Shown here: piece by piece, positions 4,741 through 62,390 of the stretch
Layout of the letters: every line of letters begins with the position of its first letter
How positions within the stretch are numbered: the first letter of the stretch is position 1
Assembly: GCF_019977295.1 (NCBI RefSeq)
Contig: NZ_AP024651.1
Location: forward strand, 3,906,001-3,970,000
Reading direction: 5' to 3'
Source of the DNA: Arthrobacter sp. StoSoilB20
Lineage (GTDB): Bacteria; Actinomycetota; Actinomycetes; Actinomycetales; Micrococcaceae
Length of the DNA: 64,000 nucleotides
Made by a program: the position numbers and the translations under genes
Notes under the pieces: model-generated
The model's database searches: none
Seen by the model: only the letters and a program-made list of their open reading frames with translations
What the model was told of the DNA's origin: nothing

Positions 4741-4790
4741 GCCGAGATCGCCGGAACGCTGCCAGTTCGCTGGAGCTCTCCGGCGATTTC
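4741..4790. repeat. Dispersed ~50-bp palindrome-like element, copy A
   Basis: An imperfect inverted repeat (arms CGAGATCGCCGGA and TCCGGCGATTTCG, one mismatch) lies between the convergent 3' ends of allE and a membrane-protein gene. Its reverse complement matches 27931-27980, inside a coding sequence, at about 39 of 49 positions by eye. Here it may act as a bidirectional terminator hairpin. Further TCCGGCG-type repeats continue to about 4830. Confidence 0.6.
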
Positions 4791-4827
4791 GTCGTTTTCC
4801 GGCGGTTTCGGTGCGGGTCCGGCGAAC

Positions 4828-5539: not shown

Positions 5540-5643
5540 GGTTCACTCTGGCATCGTCAGGCTGGCTGCGACAAGCGAGTTCGCGGGAATGCTGTGAAAT
5601 GGCCGTGGGCTTCCCTGCGATCTCGCGCGTTTCCCGCGAACGC

Positions 5644-20270: not shown

Positions 20271-21893
20271 ATGCGCTCTTTCCGTACTGCCCTCTCCGTT
20301 GCCGCCGTAGCCCTGGCCGTGTCACTGGCAGGCTGCTCCACGGCCGCCACCAGCTCATCGTCCACCGGCACCACCTCCAGCAACACCGGCAACTCAAGCA
20401 CCACCTCCACCCAGCAGGCAGTCTCCGCCGCCACCATCGAGGAAGACACCCATTACGACAGCGACGACCTCACGTGGGATGCCGCCACTGAAGTGGCTGT
20501 GAGCCTGGCCGACGACGGCAGCAAAGTGACGTCGTCGGCCTCCACCGGCGTGGCCGTAGACGGCAATACCGTCACCATCAGCGCGGCAGGAACGTACCGC
20601 CTCAGTGGCTCGCTGAGCGATGGCCAAATCGTCGTAGCGGCGGGCGAAGAAGACACGGTGCGCATCATCCTCGATGGCGTCGAGCTGGGCAATTCGGCAG
20701 GTTCGCCGTTTGTTGTGCAGAGCGCGGATGAGGCGATCGTGTTCCTGGAAGACGGCAGCACCAACACCCTGACCGACGCCACCACCTATGCCGACCAAGG
20801 GGATGACGCCCCCAACGCAGCGCTCTTCTCCATGGCCGACCTCACCATCGCCGGCACCGGTTCCCTCACGGTCAATGGGAAAGCCAACGACGGAATCGTG
20901 TCCAAGGACGGCCTGGTGATGGCCGCCGGCAAGGTTACCGTGGACGCGGTGGACGACGGCATCCGCGGCAAGGACTACACCGTCTTGTTGGACGGCGCCT
21001 ACCAGGTGACCGCGGGCGGGGACGGCATCAAAGCGGACAACGACGCCGATGAAGGCCGCGGCTGGCTGCTGGTCAGCGGCGGCTCGCTGACCGTCAATGC
21101 AGGCGACGACGGCGTGAAGGCGTTCAACACCCTCACAGTTTCCGGCGGAACCGTCACCGTGGCCGAGTCGGAGGAGGGACTCGAAGCCCAGCACATCGCC
21201 ATCTCCGGCGGCGAGGTCACCGTCACATCGAACGACGACGGCGTGAACGCCTCGGGCGGTTCGTCCACCTCAGCGTCCACTGACGCCGGCGCCGCCGCTG
21301 GCATGGGCGGCGGTATGGGCGGACCCGCTGGTGGCGGCATGGGCGGCGGCGAGATGGCGGCAGGCGATTACTCCGTGGACGTATCCGGGGGAACACTCAC
21401 CATCAACTCCGAGGGCGACGGCCTGGACTCCAACGGCAGCGCCACCATCTCCGGAGGAACAGTGGTGGTCAACGGCCCCACCAACGACGGCAACGGGGCT
21501 TTGGATGTAAACGGCGAGCTGGTAGTAAGTGGCGGAACCGTCGCAGCAGCCGGCAGTGCAGGCATGGCGGTCACCCCTGGCACCACGTCCACGCAGTCAG
21601 GGGTGCAAGTGACCTTCGATTCGTCCGTATCGGCTGGCACTCCGGTGCACCTTGTTGATTCATCCGGTGATGTGGTTGCCACATTCGTGACCACAAAGAC
21701 CACTGCATCGCTGGTCTTCTCTTCCCAGGCCATCACCGACGGTGAGAGCTACACGGTGTACACCGGGGGCAGCGCCAATGCCGGGGCAGGCCTGACCACG
21801 GGTTCCACTGACGGAGCCCAGAAGCAGGGCACGGTGACTGCGGGCCAGTACACCCAGGCCCAGGGCCCTGGTGGAGGTGGCGGCCGCCGGTAG
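20271..21893 (+). CDS. DUF4353 carbohydrate-binding-domain lipoprotein
   Basis: 540 residues. The signal peptide ends in the lipobox LAGC near residue 23, followed by a Ser/Thr-rich linker. The body is a right-handed beta-helix-like array of repeats with NDGIVSKDG, DDGIRGKDY, GDGIKADND, GDDGVKAFN, EEGLEAQH, DDGVNASGG and GDGLDSNGS, the pattern of DUF4353 ('cthe'). A Gly/Met-rich loop (GMGGGMGGPAGGGMGGGEM) interrupts it near residue 350. The surface lipoprotein may bind or shape the polymer made by the upstream operon. It starts 44 bases after the VTC gene. CotH, often found with these partners, is absent in this window. Confidence 0.87.
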   Translation: MRSFRTALSVAAVALAVSLAGCSTAATSSSSTGTTSSNTGNSSTTSTQQAVSAATIEEDTHYDSDDLTWDAATEVAVSLADDGSKVTSSASTGVAVDGNTVTISAAGTYRLSGSLSDGQIVVAAGEEDTVRIILDGVELGNSAGSPFVVQSADEAIVFLEDGSTNTLTDATTYADQGDDAPNAALFSMADLTIAGTGSLTVNGKANDGIVSKDGLVMAAGKVTVDAVDDGIRGKDYTVLLDGAYQVTAGGDGIKADNDADEGRGWLLVSGGSLTVNAGDDGVKAFNTLTVSGGTVTVAESEEGLEAQHIAISGGEVTVTSNDDGVNASGGSSTSASTDAGAAAGMGGGMGGPAGGGMGGGEMAAGDYSVDVSGGTLTINSEGDGLDSNGSATISGGTVVVNGPTNDGNGALDVNGELVVSGGTVAAAGSAGMAVTPGTTSTQSGVQVTFDSSVSAGTPVHLVDSSGDVVATFVTTKTTASLVFSSQAITDGESYTVYTGGSANAGAGLTTGSTDGAQKQGTVTAGQYTQAQGPGGGGGRR

Positions 21894-22158: not shown

Positions 22159-22206
22159 CAGCGCCCGACGACGACACTCGCCTGCCGTCGTCGGGCGCTG
22201 TTTTGG
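22159..22206 (+). terminator. Rho-independent terminator
   Basis: The arms 22159-22173 and 22186-22200 (CAGCGCCCGACGACG and its exact reverse complement) form a 15-bp perfect stem with a 12-base loop, followed by TTTTGG. Orientation is plus. Confidence 0.85.
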
Positions 22207-25251: not shown

Positions 25252-27015
25252 CTACAGCGTGACCTGCACGGCCGCGCGCGTGCCGCCGTCCTCGTAGTTG
25301 TCCACGCCCGCGAGGTGACGGCCTGCAATGTATCCGAACGTCAGCGCCGGGCCAAGGTTGATGCCGCCGGCTGGATAGTGGCCACCCATGACATTGGCTT
25401 GGTCGTTGCCGGTGACGTAGAGACCGGGGATGGGGTCGCCGTCGCTGGTGAGCGCGCGCGAGGTTCCGTCCGTGTCGATCCCGGCGAACGTGCCGAAACT
25501 CCCGGGAACCACCCGCACCGCATAGAACGGGCCCTTCTCCAGGGTGCCCAGTGACGGGTTGGGCTGGTTGCCGGGATCACCGCCGTAGCGGTTGAAGGCC
25601 GTCCCGCCGCGCCCGAAGTCAGGGTCGACGCCGTCGCGCGCGTTGGCATTGAACCTCGCCACCGTGCGGCGCAACTCTGCGGGGTCGATCCCGCATTTCG
25701 TGGCAAGCTCCTCCAACGTCCGGCCTTTGATGAGGTACCCGGATCGCAGGTAGGGGAACAGCGGGACGGGCAACGGTTTGGCCATTCCCAGCGGGAACCT
25801 GCGCACGAACCGGCTGTCCGCTATCTGCCACGATTCAACGGTGGCACCTTCGGGCGTCGCTGCCAGGAGCGCCTCCACGTAGTCGTAGTAGCCATTGGCC
25901 TCGTTCACGAACCGTTTTCCGTCAGCACGGACCCCGATGCTGCCCGGCTTGGCACGGTCCATGATGTGCGGGAACACTCCCGTCCGGCCGTTGCGGTACG
26001 GCACCAGCGACACCGGACACCACGCGGCGGGCGACTTCACGTCTGTCCTGAAACGGGCCCCCACGGAGGTGGCCAGCCTGATGCCGTCGCCCGTGGTTTC
26101 ATGCGGCGACAAGGTCCAGTGCTCCCGGCCGGTAGGGGTCTTGGGGAAGAGTTCCCTGCGGCGCTGGACATCGTTGGGGAAGCCGCCGGTTGCCAGCACG
26201 ACGCCGCGTCCAGCCTTGATGTGAAGCTCACCTTCGGGAGAACGCACGACGGCGCCGGTCACCTTGCCGTTGTCGTCGCTGAGCAATGCTGTAGCAGGAG
26301 TGGAAACGCGGATATCGACACCCAGGTCATCAGCTGACTTCATGAGCCTGCCGGTAAGGGCCGTGCCATTGACCAGCTGCATGTTGCGGCGGTGGACCAG
26401 CACATCCAGGAGGTGGAAAGCGAAGCGCCACCCCGCGTGGAAGATCCCGCCGGGGTTGCCCTTCGATGCCGAGAGGAACTTGCTGAGGTCCGGACCGGCC
26501 ATGATTCCCATGCCCAGGAAGGACGTCTCGTACAGCTGGTGACGCATCTTGGCACGCAGGGCTGGTTTGATGGCCCGGGCATTGAGGGGTTTGGGACCCA
26601 CGGAGCGATGGCCCGTGCCCGCGCCGGGAAGTTTGCCGTAAATGTCGTTGATCCTGCTGCCGGGGACGAACTGCAGGGACGTCTTGTCCTGGAAGAATCC
26701 CACCATGTGTGGTGACGCTTCCAGGAAGGCTTCCACGTTCTCTTCCCGGTAATCTCCGCCGAGGACTGCCCGGAGGTAGGTCCTGAAGGTTTCCTTCTCT
26801 TCGGTGACGCCTTCGGCTTGTGCCAGCGGATTACCGGGAGCCCAAGCCCATCCGCCGGACCATGACGTGGCACCGCCGCAAACATCGGATTTTTCCACGA
26901 CGATGACTTTCAGTCCGTGATAGGCCGCTGTCACAGCCGCAGCGAGGCCGCCTGCCCCGGAGCCAATGACGAGGACATCGCAGTCCTGGGTGGGGAGGGA
27001 GGGGGTGCTGTTCAT
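25252..27015 (-). CDS. FAD-dependent oxidoreductase (KstD/fumarate-reductase flavoprotein family)
   Basis: 587 residues from the ATG at 27015. The FAD-binding N-terminus is CDVLVIGSGAGGLAAAVTAA, followed by VVEKSDVCGGATSWSGGWAW. The C-terminal FAD-contact segment is GHYPAGGINLGPALTFGYIA. This is the three-part layout of 3-ketosteroid dehydrogenases and fumarate-reductase-like proteins, which introduce or reduce a C=C bond next to a carbonyl. Its ATG overlaps the TGA of the upstream OYE/TIM fusion (ATGA), so they are translationally coupled. The substrate is unknown; an alicyclic ring compound is inferred from the operon. Confidence 0.88.
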   Translation of the reverse strand: MNSTPSLPTQDCDVLVIGSGAGGLAAAVTAAYHGLKVIVVEKSDVCGGATSWSGGWAWAPGNPLAQAEGVTEEKETFRTYLRAVLGGDYREENVEAFLEASPHMVGFFQDKTSLQFVPGSRINDIYGKLPGAGTGHRSVGPKPLNARAIKPALRAKMRHQLYETSFLGMGIMAGPDLSKFLSASKGNPGGIFHAGWRFAFHLLDVLVHRRNMQLVNGTALTGRLMKSADDLGVDIRVSTPATALLSDDNGKVTGAVVRSPEGELHIKAGRGVVLATGGFPNDVQRRRELFPKTPTGREHWTLSPHETTGDGIRLATSVGARFRTDVKSPAAWCPVSLVPYRNGRTGVFPHIMDRAKPGSIGVRADGKRFVNEANGYYDYVEALLAATPEGATVESWQIADSRFVRRFPLGMAKPLPVPLFPYLRSGYLIKGRTLEELATKCGIDPAELRRTVARFNANARDGVDPDFGRGGTAFNRYGGDPGNQPNPSLGTLEKGPFYAVRVVPGSFGTFAGIDTDGTSRALTSDGDPIPGLYVTGNDQANVMGGHYPAGGINLGPALTFGYIAGRHLAGVDNYEDGGTRAAVQVTL

Positions 27016-30000
27016 GAGGTACTCCAGGTAAATGCGGGGGTATTGAGGACAGAGTCTGCTGCCGCCTTCAGCTGTTTGGCCCAGGCGAGTTCGCCCATGG
27101 CGGCCACCCGGCTTCCAGAGGGGGTCTCGACGCTGACGGGGACCACTGGGGGGAAGGAGGCGAGCATGGCCGTGAGATCGAATGCGCCTTCCCCCGGTAC
27201 ACCCCGCTCCAAGCGGGACTCCAGGATCAGCCCTTCCTTGCCCGGCGGCGGGGTGGTCGGTCCATCGCAGAGCTGGATCATGGGAACCAGGTCTGCAGCG
27301 TCTTCGAGTTCTGCCCATGTGCCGCCGAAGCGGTTGAAATGGAGCGCGTCCACCACGATTTTGCAGTCGGCAAAGTCGGCGAGCTCCACGGCTTGCGGGA
27401 TTGACCGGACCTTCTGGTAGGAAATGGGCTCCAGCGTGGGAACGATCCCATACGCGGTGCCGTCCTGCGTCATCTGCGCGAGGTGGTCCCCAAATCGGTC
27501 CAAATCAGGATCCGCGCAGGCAACAGTCAGCGTGGATGCGCCCAGAGCCTGGCCTGCCTCCATCATCCGCAACCAGGCCGCGCGTTGGTCAACGCCGTTC
27601 TGCAGGCCCGTTCCGTCCAGGAGCAGGAATTCGATGTCTTCCACAGTGATCCCGGTGTCAGCCATCCGCGCCAGGGTTTCCCTCAGCATGGGCGAGCCCG
27701 GCTGAAGGTTGTAGGACCGTTCCGTGGCGGTCACCGGGCGGACGCGGGCTCCGATGAAGTCGAACCCGGCCTGGCCGGCGATGGTCACCAAGTCCGGGGG
27801 CGCGGTTCCCACCAGGGACAACTGGGCGAGCCCGAGCCTGCGTATCGGTGTGCCAAGGGGTGGAAGGGCAATGGGGGCAGAGTCACCGGCTGGGTGGGAC
27901 TCTGCGGCACCGGGATCGCCGCTACGCTGCGAGATCGCCGAAAAGCTCCGGCGAACCGGCACGTTTCCAGCGACCTCGGTACCATCGCTGCCAGGACCGG
28001 CAGCCAAAGCAGCAGCAATCCGTTGCGCAGCGTCGTATCCGCTCTTGACTGCGTTGGACACGATGGCCGGAGACGGATCGACGACGGTCCCGGCCATGGC
28101 TACAGGGATGGAGGCCACGCCGTCCCCGGATTTCCATGCCTCTACAGTGGCAGATCCTTCCACGGGAAGTACGGATCGTGAGACCAGCAACTCACCCGGG
28201 GCTTCGACCCACTGGTCCTCAACACCTGCGCGGCTGATGCGGACGCGGTTGCCGTCAAACTCCTCGATGGTGCTGGACAGGAAGATCCGCACCCGCGGGT
28301 TGGCTTCCAATCGCGGCACTGCCAGAATCTTGGCCCGGCGGCCTGACTCCGGGGCCAACGACTCCTGGGGTCCGATGATCGTCACCGCGGTTCCCCGGGA
28401 AGCCAGGGTGTCGGCCACGCTCATCGCCACAGCATCGGCACCCCAGATGGTCACTGCCTCCGGAGCCGAGCCAGCCGAAGCGGCCGGACCATTCGAAATG
28501 GCAGCAGCGGCCGGACCAGCCGAATCGGCAGAGCCACCCAAACCGGCCGTACCCTCCGAATCGGCCGAGCCACCCGAATCGGCCGCACCCCCCGAAGCGG
28601 CCGAGCCAGCCGCAGCGGCCGGACCACCCGGAGCCACCGGACCACCCGAAAAGGCCGAGCCACCCAACGCGGTCGCACCCCCCGCAGCGGCAGCACCGCC
28701 GTCGAGCACTTCCGGATGAGCCGCCAGCCATTCCCGGATATCCAGGACGCGAGGCGAATCACTGCCGGCAAACCCGGCTGCCGGCAAACGACCCCCGGTG
28801 GCGATAACAACTGCGTCGGCTCCAAAGTCACGGGCCAGCGCACCGGCGTCGGAGGTGTCAACGCGGGAACCCAAGCGGACGTCCACGCCCAGGCGCTCGT
28901 TTTCCAACGTTGACCAGTCGGCAAAGCGGTGGAAGTCCGGCGTGGACCTCATGCGTTCAGCCAGGGCAAACTGCCCGCCGGTCCGCGACCCCTGGTCCAC
29001 CAGCGTCACACGGGCACCGGCTTGGGCGAGTTCGCGGGCGGCGGTGAGCCCGGCAGGACCGGCACCGACCACCAGCACTGTGGAATCCGGACGGACGGCC
29101 GGGGTGGGAACCGGTACCCGGGACCGGCCGACAGCAGGATTGACGGTGCAGGTGACTTGCCCGAGTCCGAGGTTGTCGATGCAGACGTTGCACGCGATAC
29201 ATGGCCGGTAGCGTTCGCCCCGCAGGACACCGCCAACAAAAGCAGGATCGGCATGGATGGCACGGGCCAGGCTGACGAAATCGCAGGTGCCCTCCGAAAG
29301 GACTTCTTCAATGATTTCCGGACTGTTGAGCCGGCCGGCCATCCCCAGCGGCATGCCGAACCGTCGGTAGGCCTTGGCGTAATCGGCAAGGATGCCGGGC
29401 TTCCATTCCCCCGACTGGACGATCCATTCGCCAGCGTCGTAACTGCCCGCGGAAAGGTCCAGGAAGTCGAGCTTGTCGAGGTTGGCTTTGGCGATGATGT
29501 CAACTTGCTGCTCGGCGCTGATGCCGTCGGCGGGGCCTTCCACCACGGAGACGCGCATGCCCAGGATCGTATCCGGCACGGCCTCTCGAACAGCATCAAT
29601 GACCAAATTCATGAAGAACTCCGGGGCAGCAAACTCGTCCGTCCGATGGTTGGAAATCGGCGACATGAACTGGTGGATCAGGTACCCGTGGGCGCCATGG
29701 ACGTTGATGACGTCGAACCCGGCGGCAACCGCACGGCGGGCCGCAGCAGCATACGCGTCAACGAGTTCGTAGCACTGGGCAGCGGTGAGTTCCAGCGGAA
29801 CCTCTCCACCCGCCGTCGCGCACGGAACCGGCGACGGCGCGAGGTTCTGGAACCCGGACACTGCGGACTGCGCGGTGCGGCCGCCATGGTTAAGTTCGAC
29901 GGCGGCCAGGGTACCTTGGGCGTGCAGGGCGTCGGTGAGGCGGCGCAGGCCCGGGACCATGTCATCGGTGTGCAGTCCAAGTTGGTGCGTCCGGCCCTTG

Positions 30001-30233
30001 CCGTCCGCCCGGACATAGGTGGCTTCGGTGGTGACCATGCCCAGGCCCGCCTTGGCGCGGGTTACAAGGTAGTCGATGTACTGCTCGGTGATGTAACCAT
30101 CCGCGGTTCCGTAATTGCGTTCCATGGGAGCCGAAGCCAGCCGGTTGCGGAGGGTCCTTGGGGTGCGGCCGTTGCGGCCGAGGGTCAGGGGCGACGCTGC
30201 TGATGGTGATGCTGCTGTTGGTGACGTTTCCAT
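27012..30233 (-). CDS. Fusion: FadH-like OYE/FAD oxidoreductase + sugar-phosphate isomerase/epimerase-type TIM barrel
   Basis: 1073 residues from the ATG at 30233; upstream in-frame codons belong to the previous gene's antisense. Residues ~13-370 are an Old Yellow Enzyme barrel (VINVHGAHGYLIHQFMSP) ending in the Fe-S cysteine motif CIACNVCIDNLGLGQVTC. Residues ~384-745 are the FAD/NAD(P) part (VLVVGAGPAGLTAARELAQ), as in 2,4-dienoyl-CoA reductase and bile-acid or trimethylamine enzymes. It is interrupted at ~510-592 by an Ala/Gly/Ser tract. Residues ~790-1073 form an AP-endonuclease-2-like TIM barrel (IVPTLEPIS, KIVVDALHFNR, PMIQLCDGP) of the type found in 3-dehydroshikimate dehydratases. The linker (~751-767) is encoded by repeat copy B. 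I know no standard enzyme with this full architecture; fusion by repeat insertion is inference. Confidence 0.85.
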   Translation of the reverse strand: METSPTAASPSAASPLTLGRNGRTPRTLRNRLASAPMERNYGTADGYITEQYIDYLVTRAKAGLGMVTTEATYVRADGKGRTHQLGLHTDDMVPGLRRLTDALHAQGTLAAVELNHGGRTAQSAVSGFQNLAPSPVPCATAGGEVPLELTAAQCYELVDAYAAAARRAVAAGFDVINVHGAHGYLIHQFMSPISNHRTDEFAAPEFFMNLVIDAVREAVPDTILGMRVSVVEGPADGISAEQQVDIIAKANLDKLDFLDLSAGSYDAGEWIVQSGEWKPGILADYAKAYRRFGMPLGMAGRLNSPEIIEEVLSEGTCDFVSLARAIHADPAFVGGVLRGERYRPCIACNVCIDNLGLGQVTCTVNPAVGRSRVPVPTPAVRPDSTVLVVGAGPAGLTAARELAQAGARVTLVDQGSRTGGQFALAERMRSTPDFHRFADWSTLENERLGVDVRLGSRVDTSDAGALARDFGADAVVIATGGRLPAAGFAGSDSPRVLDIREWLAAHPEVLDGGAAAAGGATALGGSAFSGGPVAPGGPAAAAGSAASGGAADSGGSADSEGTAGLGGSADSAGPAAAAISNGPAASAGSAPEAVTIWGADAVAMSVADTLASRGTAVTIIGPQESLAPESGRRAKILAVPRLEANPRVRIFLSSTIEEFDGNRVRISRAGVEDQWVEAPGELLVSRSVLPVEGSATVEAWKSGDGVASIPVAMAGTVVDPSPAIVSNAVKSGYDAAQRIAAALAAGPGSDGTEVAGNVPVRRSFSAISQRSGDPGAAESHPAGDSAPIALPPLGTPIRRLGLAQLSLVGTAPPDLVTIAGQAGFDFIGARVRPVTATERSYNLQPGSPMLRETLARMADTGITVEDIEFLLLDGTGLQNGVDQRAAWLRMMEAGQALGASTLTVACADPDLDRFGDHLAQMTQDGTAYGIVPTLEPISYQKVRSIPQAVELADFADCKIVVDALHFNRFGGTWAELEDAADLVPMIQLCDGPTTPPPGKEGLILESRLERGVPGEGAFDLTAMLASFPPVVPVSVETPSGSRVAAMGELAWAKQLKAAADSVLNTPAFTWSTS
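27931..27980. repeat. Dispersed ~50-bp element, copy B, in frame inside the fusion gene
   Basis: This segment matches the reverse complement of 4741-4790 at about 39 of 49 positions (shared blocks ATCGCCG, AGCTCC, GCGAAC, GGCA, TTCC, CTCGG). It encodes the linker VAGNVPVRRSFSAIS between the FAD domain and the TIM barrel, exactly at the domain junction and without a frame break. Confidence 0.6.
28460..28706. repeat. In-frame minisatellite coding an Ala/Gly/Ser tract
   Basis: Degenerate GGCCGAGCCACCCGAATCGG-like units repeat across ~245 bases and encode a tract of about 80 residues rich in GGSADSGG, GPAAAAG and similar motifs. It separates IREWLAAHPEVLDG from PEAVTIWGADAVAMS, which are adjacent in ordinary members of the FAD/NAD(P) reductase family. 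Confidence 0.75.
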
Positions 30234-50766: not shown

Positions 50767-50808
50767 GCCGACGACGACGCGAGGCACCCGCCGTCGTCGG
50801 CTTCTTTT
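50767..50808 (+). terminator. Intrinsic terminator-like hairpin
   Basis: GCCGACGACG (50767-50776) pairs with CGTCGTCGGC (50792-50801), followed on the plus strand by TTCTTTTTG. Both flanking genes are on the minus strand, where the trailing sequence GTATTGTTT is a weaker T-tract. It may separate the AHSA1 gene from adk, or end an unrecognised plus-strand transcript antisense to adk. Confidence 0.55.
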
Positions 50809-61730: not shown

Positions 61731-61880
61731 CGCACACAAGGTTTACCAGCGATTCCACGGCACCGTCAAGGGTTTGACAAGAAATGACTGTGAGATTTCG
61801 GTGTTTATTGTTCACAAGTGTGATCGGGTTTTGCGCCCGGGCCAGCGGCTCTTATGACGAGGCTCCTCCAGCCGCAACCC

Positions 61881-62168
61881 CCAATCAGATCCCCTGGGTT
61901 GAGCTCCAACGCCCAATCACATCCCCTAGGTTCGAACCCCAACGCCCAATCACATCCCCTAGGTTCAAACCCCACCCCCAATCACATCCCCTAGGTTCAA
62001 ACCCCACCCCCAATCACATCCCCAGGTTCAAACCCAACCCCCAATCACATCCCCAGGTTCAAACCCAACCCCCAATCACATCCCCAGGTTCAAACCCAAC
62101 CCCCAATCACATCCCCCAGGTTCCAACCCAACCCCCAATCACATCCCCCAGGTTCCAACCCAACCCCG
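61881..62168. repeat. Minisatellite array 1, nine units of 31-33 bp
   Basis: Nine imperfect units each contain CCAATCACATCCCC and GGTTCAAACCC-like blocks. Early units carry CTAGGTTCGAACCCC and later ones CAGGTTCCAACCC, showing stepwise divergence along the array. No coding potential is credible. It lies in the 1-kb gap upstream of the PL11 gene. Confidence 0.9.
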
Positions 62169-62390
62169 GGGATGTGGAAGAGCGTTTGGCTCAGGCCCGG
62201 GGGATGTGGAAGAGCGTTTGGCTCAGGCCCGGGGGATGTGGAAGAGCCTTAGGCCCAGGCCCGGGGGATGTGGAAGAGCCTTAGGCCCAGGCCCGGGGGA
62301 TATGGAAGAGCGTTCGGCCCAAACATGGGGGACGTGAGAGAGCGTTGGCCGCAAACAAGGGGGACGTGAGAGAGGATCAGGAAGCGGCAG
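62164..62390. repeat. Minisatellite array 2, about seven units of ~32 bp, inverted core
   Basis: Units follow CCGGGGGATGTGGAAGAGC plus a variable GTTTGGCTCAGG or CTTAGGCCCAGG. The last two or three units drift to GGGGGACGTGAGAGAGCG. The core GGGGATGTG is the reverse complement of CACATCCCC in array 1, so the two arrays face each other and could form long hairpins. Confidence 0.85.

Follow-up and report, generated by a model that had tools for sequence, protein, structure and literature searches.

RAYT transposases are thought to spread repetitive extragenic palindromes (REPs), and homing endonucleases spread their own genes; AbiEi antitoxins bind inverted repeats of their own promoters, and Rickettsia palindromic elements occupy many coding sites. 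The origin and spread of small palindromic repeats is an old question, for which the RAYTs are the enzyme family proposed. The RAYT was put forward as mover of the REP on the basis of the inverted REPs that flank its gene, co-evolution, the abundance of the cognate REP and evolution faster than that of neighbouring genes (PMC2817692). Here, we describe a 64,000-nt stretch of DNA from Arthrobacter sp. StoSoilB20 (the window, to which all positions refer unless prefixed G000, for the organism's own genome), in which a 66-nt palindromic element is translated in frame within the linker of a multidomain enzyme. We propose, with a probability of roughly 0.7, that this segment is a copy of a palindrome family linked to a nuclease gene, that it was gained once, in frame, and later became a linker, and that the nuclease may drive the spread of the family.

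A dispersed palindrome translated as an enzyme linker

The element (27912..27977, minus strand) lies in a fused gene (27012..30233, minus strand, start at 30233; Pfam PF00724, PF07992 and PF01261) encoding 1073 aa, the best protein match of which (98%) is named Paenarthrobacter nicotinovorans. An Old Yellow Enzyme/FAD-NAD(P) reductase (residues ~12–745, comprising Oxidored_FMN and Pyr_redox_2) is followed by a linker and a xylose-isomerase-like TIM barrel (~798–1073), with the last 276 residues assigned to PF01261. The element is read as EVAGNVPVRRSFSAISQRSGDP (residues 753–774). This confirms the preliminary description: the segment is a dispersed palindromic repeat, it is translated in frame, and it lies between the FAD domain and the TIM barrel. 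The rest of the linker (27843..27911, minus strand) extends to RRLGLAQLS, the start of the TIM barrel, and occupies the place that in split relatives holds LNGARK* and an overlapping start codon.

An intergenic copy (about 4743..4809, plus strand) is located between a gene for (S)-ureidoglycine aminohydrolase and a convergent open reading frame of ~113 aa. An ungapped recount of 27931–27980 against the reverse complement of 4741–4790 gave 39 of 50 identical positions, in line with the ~39/49 earlier counted by eye; the full unit, its extent read from relatives, exceeds the ~50 bp first noted. A pattern describing both copies, composed post hoc with both already known, occurs with at most three mismatches at three places in the 4.78-Mb genome (reversed control, 0), and GARATCGCCGGAA occurs at eight sites (control, 0). 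Linker copies from 15 species score 34–46 against nuclease-flanking palindromes of other genomes (see below), whereas shuffled linker copies (50 each) never exceed 20; among random windows of the linker loci, some of which may overlap the linker, 0 to 2 of 300 reach the linker-copy score. The segments 27912–27977 and 4743–4809 are confirmed as copies of one dispersed palindrome, with many further copies and a similarity above chance level. A third match (5617..5639, minus strand, in the gap preceding the permease gene) to the variant unit TCGCGGGAA, with two mismatches, is weak and doubtful alone, 0.23 matches to the pattern being expected in the window.

The 66-nt consensus starts with GAGATC, ends with GATCTC and contains no stop codon in any of its six frames. 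It is near-palindromic, with 29 of 33 positions pairing, compared with 19–24 in the linker copies; by eye, palindromes of ~66–68 bp resolve into four units of ~20 nt, half of them direct and half inverted. Searching the window against Rfam at the gathering score returned no match.

BLAST with the consensus, with four regions scored per genome, located related copies in 144 of 204 same-genus genomes. Seven of the 30 best copies (each from a different genome) correspond to the linker site; a simple codon score gave no coding candidate for the other 23, and no further in-frame copies were found among the 30. One of these loci (L174) looked open, but its neighbouring genes are on the other strand with the copy between them, and it was rejected as a coding copy. 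The intergenic copy of the window is present at the same place in nine relatives, chosen because of a copy near this site, and the convergent gene was matched in eight of them.

The element was gained before the fusion

Junctions between the two enzyme parts were extracted from 52 same-genus loci in 51 genomes (54 of 58 matching genomes were fetched, and three had the second gene only), and presence of the element was called by eye from the tails. It is absent at this place from 37 junctions, 36 of which are two genes with a stop/start overlap; the linker is not shared by all homologues. The 15 junctions with orthologous copies comprise eight fused and seven split loci, and in the split genes the element lies in frame upstream of the old tail ending NGARK*, with the stop/start overlap kept. 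Across all 15 bearers, the 66-nt core aligns codon for codon.

In a DNA tree of the two domains, excluding the linker, the 15 bearers form one clade (98/99 support), and the element changes once and fusion twice. A single fusion origin was not rejected by the approximately unbiased test (p-AU 0.085; 0.132 without third positions), and a protein tree was undecided on the number of origins; we place fusion within the element clade at one to three events. Because seven of the 15 element-bearing genes are still split, with the old stop/start overlap, insertion preceded fusion: the element was gained once at the linker site, ahead of fusion. The repeat first entered the tail of the enzyme gene, with the frame preserved, and became part of the linker on later fusion with the neighbouring gene.

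Within the linker, the pooled ratio of nonsynonymous to synonymous change (dN/dS) is 0.87 (1.15 in fused and 0.55 in split genes), compared with 0.09 in the domains. Per-site divergence across the same eight species is 0.227 for the linker, almost uniform over codon positions, compared with 0.398 for the third positions of the gene and 0.096 for the orthologous intergenic copy; the lower value of the intergenic copy indicates that it has been kept and the coding copy released. The linker element drifts almost free of protein-level constraint, in an almost neutral manner. Compensatory paired changes in the linker hairpin were not seen (mean 21.5 pairs, vs 22.4 with the halves re-dealt among species). 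Silent sites in the linker are unusually slow, with 1 of 165 windows of 22 codons equally slow; over the 22 linker codons in 15 species, the synonymous difference (pS) is 0.22 vs 0.47 in the domains, approximately half, and replacement sites evolve faster than in the domains. A second variable stretch, Gly/Ala/Ser-rich and containing an 18-nt repeat, spans residues ~512–591 of the fused gene (28463–28700); this species and its closest homologue have a long version, and most other aligned fused homologues a short one or none.

A nuclease gene lies between matching palindromes

The palindromes are paired with a gene encoding a protein with an AbiEi-like N-terminus and a Vsr-type PD-(D/E)XK fold, assigned by fold match. 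Residues D240, E251, D253 and K257 of this predicted nuclease are invariant in 42 aligned homologues, and Pfam PF18741 matches it below the family cut-off; a sequence search of the PDB returned three rows, all at chance level. Matches to the consensus occur on both sides of the nuclease gene in 27 of the 30 best homologues. Among 105 nuclease loci, a clear palindrome is present on at least one side in 93, of which 49 have it on both; such palindromes occur in 14 of 210 far windows. Upstream and downstream flanks match at 84 of the 105 loci (by set: 26/30, 16/17, 15/18, 14/20 from other genera, and 13/20), compared with 1 of 105 for windows 640–900 nt away. Flank sequences differ between nuclease subfamilies, and their similarity tracks nuclease identity (Mantel r 0.72, 0/999). 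A quite different palindrome occurs scattered through another genus, in 7 of 38 genomes; it lies on both sides of a nuclease gene in G510, G485 and G480 (interrupted in G480) and on a single side in G518. The loci fetched from G443, G387 and G514 contain no nuclease.

The nuclease evolves faster than its surroundings: mean identity is 61%, vs 89% for the neighbouring tgt, and is lower in 528 of 528 pairs (the neighbours tgt and Vut_1 were named by search). By linkage, the 105 loci fall into 28 neighbour groups, the largest comprising 38 loci at one place with nucleases 38–97% identical, and four locus pairs are inverted relative to their neighbours. Strong palindromes and the presence of a close nuclease are associated (82/32 against 15/77), a comparison that is partly circular because flanking copies count in both.

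Other candidate partners were rejected. The five matches to DUF559 (PF04480) in the organism's own genome all lie away from the bracketed gene, as judged by place rather than by flanks. A Y1 (HUH) transposase partner was rejected because PF01797, which gave matches in 6 of 14 control genomes, has none in the organism's own genome. The L160 protein weakly matches a toxin-subunit model (E 0.059, 12 bits vs a cut-off of 720), which we judged to be due to chance. Among the open-literature papers listed, none connected palindromes with either this nuclease type or DUF559.

Two further observations concern the nuclease loci. A TCCACA motif, often TTTTCCACATAG, occurs in the 160 nt before the start of 92 of 105 nuclease genes (for example L194, G000:808658-809584), at a median distance of ~57–62 nt; the 160 nt downstream of the stop never contain it. 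The motif resembles a DnaA box. Approximately 6 kb before the window lies a second nuclease gene (L224, G000:3899007-3899918) of another subfamily, the flanks of which match each other (score 33 vs 14 in shuffles), are weakly palindromic and represent another sequence type. Screening the window for a palindrome type that belongs to a different nuclease subfamily gave no match.

Comparison with REP/RAYT systems and proposed mechanism

The pairing resembles that of REPs, bacterial interspersed mosaic elements (BIMEs) and REP doublets forming hairpins (REPINs) with RAYTs, in which short palindromes are dispersed, the enzyme gene lies between cognate copies, the two co-vary and the enzyme outpaces its neighbours (PMC2817692). 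Here, too, copies are dispersed and mostly extragenic, and two cognate flanks are the rule (27/30 by consensus; 84/105 by flank match, with both flanks clear in 49/105). In contrast to the IS200/IS605-like Y1 domain of RAYTs, the partner is a Vsr-fold protein with an AbiEi-like N-terminus, and unlike REPs, the consensus lacks a GTAG end and the unit is ~66 nt long. Copy number also differs, with REPs usually exceeding 100 copies, compared with eight exact 13-mer sites in this genome. The homing endonuclease I-Bth0305I has a Vsr-like catalytic domain, whereas the present nuclease adds the AbiEi-like N-terminus and palindromes on both sides; AbiEi antitoxins of type IV toxin–antitoxin systems differ by the nuclease domain that is fused on here. 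The likeness to Rickettsia palindromic elements drawn in the preliminary description holds for in-frame translation that leaves the host protein unbroken. It is otherwise an analogy only: a single coding site was found here (30 loci, one per genome), a partner gene is present and the consensus has no CGTC end.

The kinds of evidence adduced for RAYTs are found again here for an enzyme unrelated to them, with the abundance argument in partly circular form; by analogy, we propose that the nuclease could move or copy the palindrome. The nuclease would recognise its cognate palindrome and cut DNA, and repair or copying would spread the palindrome, sometimes with the nuclease gene along with it. 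Nuclease genes mostly lie between two flanks of the same type, usually palindromic, and solo copies are scattered, as far as sampled between genes. One 66-nt copy entered the 3' end of the Old Yellow Enzyme gene in a single in-frame event that predates divergence of the 15 sampled bearers; loss of the stop/start overlap with the next gene followed in some lineages (one to three events), leaving the copy within a fused linker. The data show the repeat family, its single gain at this site, the order of events and the pairing of nuclease and palindrome; movement or copying of the palindrome by the nuclease is inferred.

The odds appear even that these systems represent a class of mobile DNA, in which small AbiEi-Vsr/homing-type nucleases each copy their own ~55–75-bp palindrome, convergent with REP/RAYT systems, widespread in Micrococcaceae and capable of writing linkers. 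A second, unrelated enzyme family that likewise pairs and co-varies with its repeat and evolves fast would point to a convergent partnership, and the nuclease is a candidate enzyme for repeats without a known mobiliser. The fusion gene provides an ordered case, with empty, filled-split and filled-fused relatives, of a repeat turned protein linker.

Weighing of alternatives

Two BLAST results weigh against the copy relationship of the two segments. BLAST of 110 nt around the linker against the own genome (E ≤ 0.001) returned only the query itself, and the linker site was not among the matches to the intergenic copy (E ≤ 10). Plain BLAST misses this pair because the coding copy has diverged, and we consider plain own-genome BLAST too insensitive as a detection method.

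The main rival, which we regard as possible but distinctly less probable, is that the palindromes are operators and terminators rather than mobile DNA: the AbiEi-like domain would repress its own gene from the upstream copy, the downstream copy would end transcription, and scattered copies would constitute a regulon or further terminators. Consistent with this, AbiEi antitoxins bind their own promoters at inverted repeats, the upstream palindrome ends at a median of 67 nt before the nuclease start (56 flanks), and, in the eight species compared above, the intergenic copy, between convergent genes, is better conserved than the linker copy (0.096 vs 0.227). However, the two flanks match, and from one subfamily to the next the downstream flank changes together with its upstream counterpart; solo copies of the type-specific sequence are scattered, and the enzyme-tail copy is located in coding DNA and missing from outgroups.

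Alternatively, the palindromes could spread by another route, through hairpins handled by host polymerase or repair or through a foreign transposase, with the nuclease acting as a cleaner or as a parasite using safe harbours. We consider this unlikely. It would account for orphan palindromes without a nuclease, and for CGTC-tagged palindromes of other bacteria no dedicated transposase is reported (PMC3733652). Against it, flank sequence follows nuclease identity (the Mantel r of 0.72), and the 112 clear flanking palindromes have length modes of 68 and 58 nt, though many come from one subfamily.

It had also been suggested that a mobile or amplifying repeat helped to fuse the two genes; it could have driven fusion, for example, as a deletion hot spot removing the stop/start overlap. 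This is partly supported by the association: eight of the nine fused genes among the 52 junctions carry the element, as do all 14 fused proteins with the anchor among the database homologues listed (12 by script, two by eye). Fusion is seen at 8 of 15 element-bearing and 1 of 37 element-free junctions (Fisher 7e-5, which ignores shared descent), and may have occurred two or three times in the element clade. However, this count amounts to about one observation because the element was gained once; the gain precedes fusion, seven bearers remain split, the peptide also occurs in nine split proteins among those listed, and a single fusion origin was not rejected. Moreover, at L146 (G193) an element-free oxidoreductase gene and its neighbour read as one through a frame shift, which could be real or a sequencing error. 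That the repeat helped or caused the fusion is neither shown nor excluded by these data, and we judge a driving role to be improbable. Finally, a native low-complexity oxidoreductase tail resembling the repeat through base composition, for which the Gly/Ala/Ser-rich expansion at residues 512–591 and tail lengths that differ between species might speak, is disfavoured and very improbable given scores of 34–46 against independent palindromes (shuffles ≤20), one gain on the tree and a core aligned codon for codon in 15 bearers.

Other repeats in the window

Two adjacent tandem-repeat arrays with a period of ~32 nt, partly complementary to each other, occupy 61860–62387. A small repeated palindrome, CGACGACG...CGTCGTCGG, occurs at 20509–20538, 22165–22194 and 50772–50804, some copies being followed by T runs; these are perhaps terminators.
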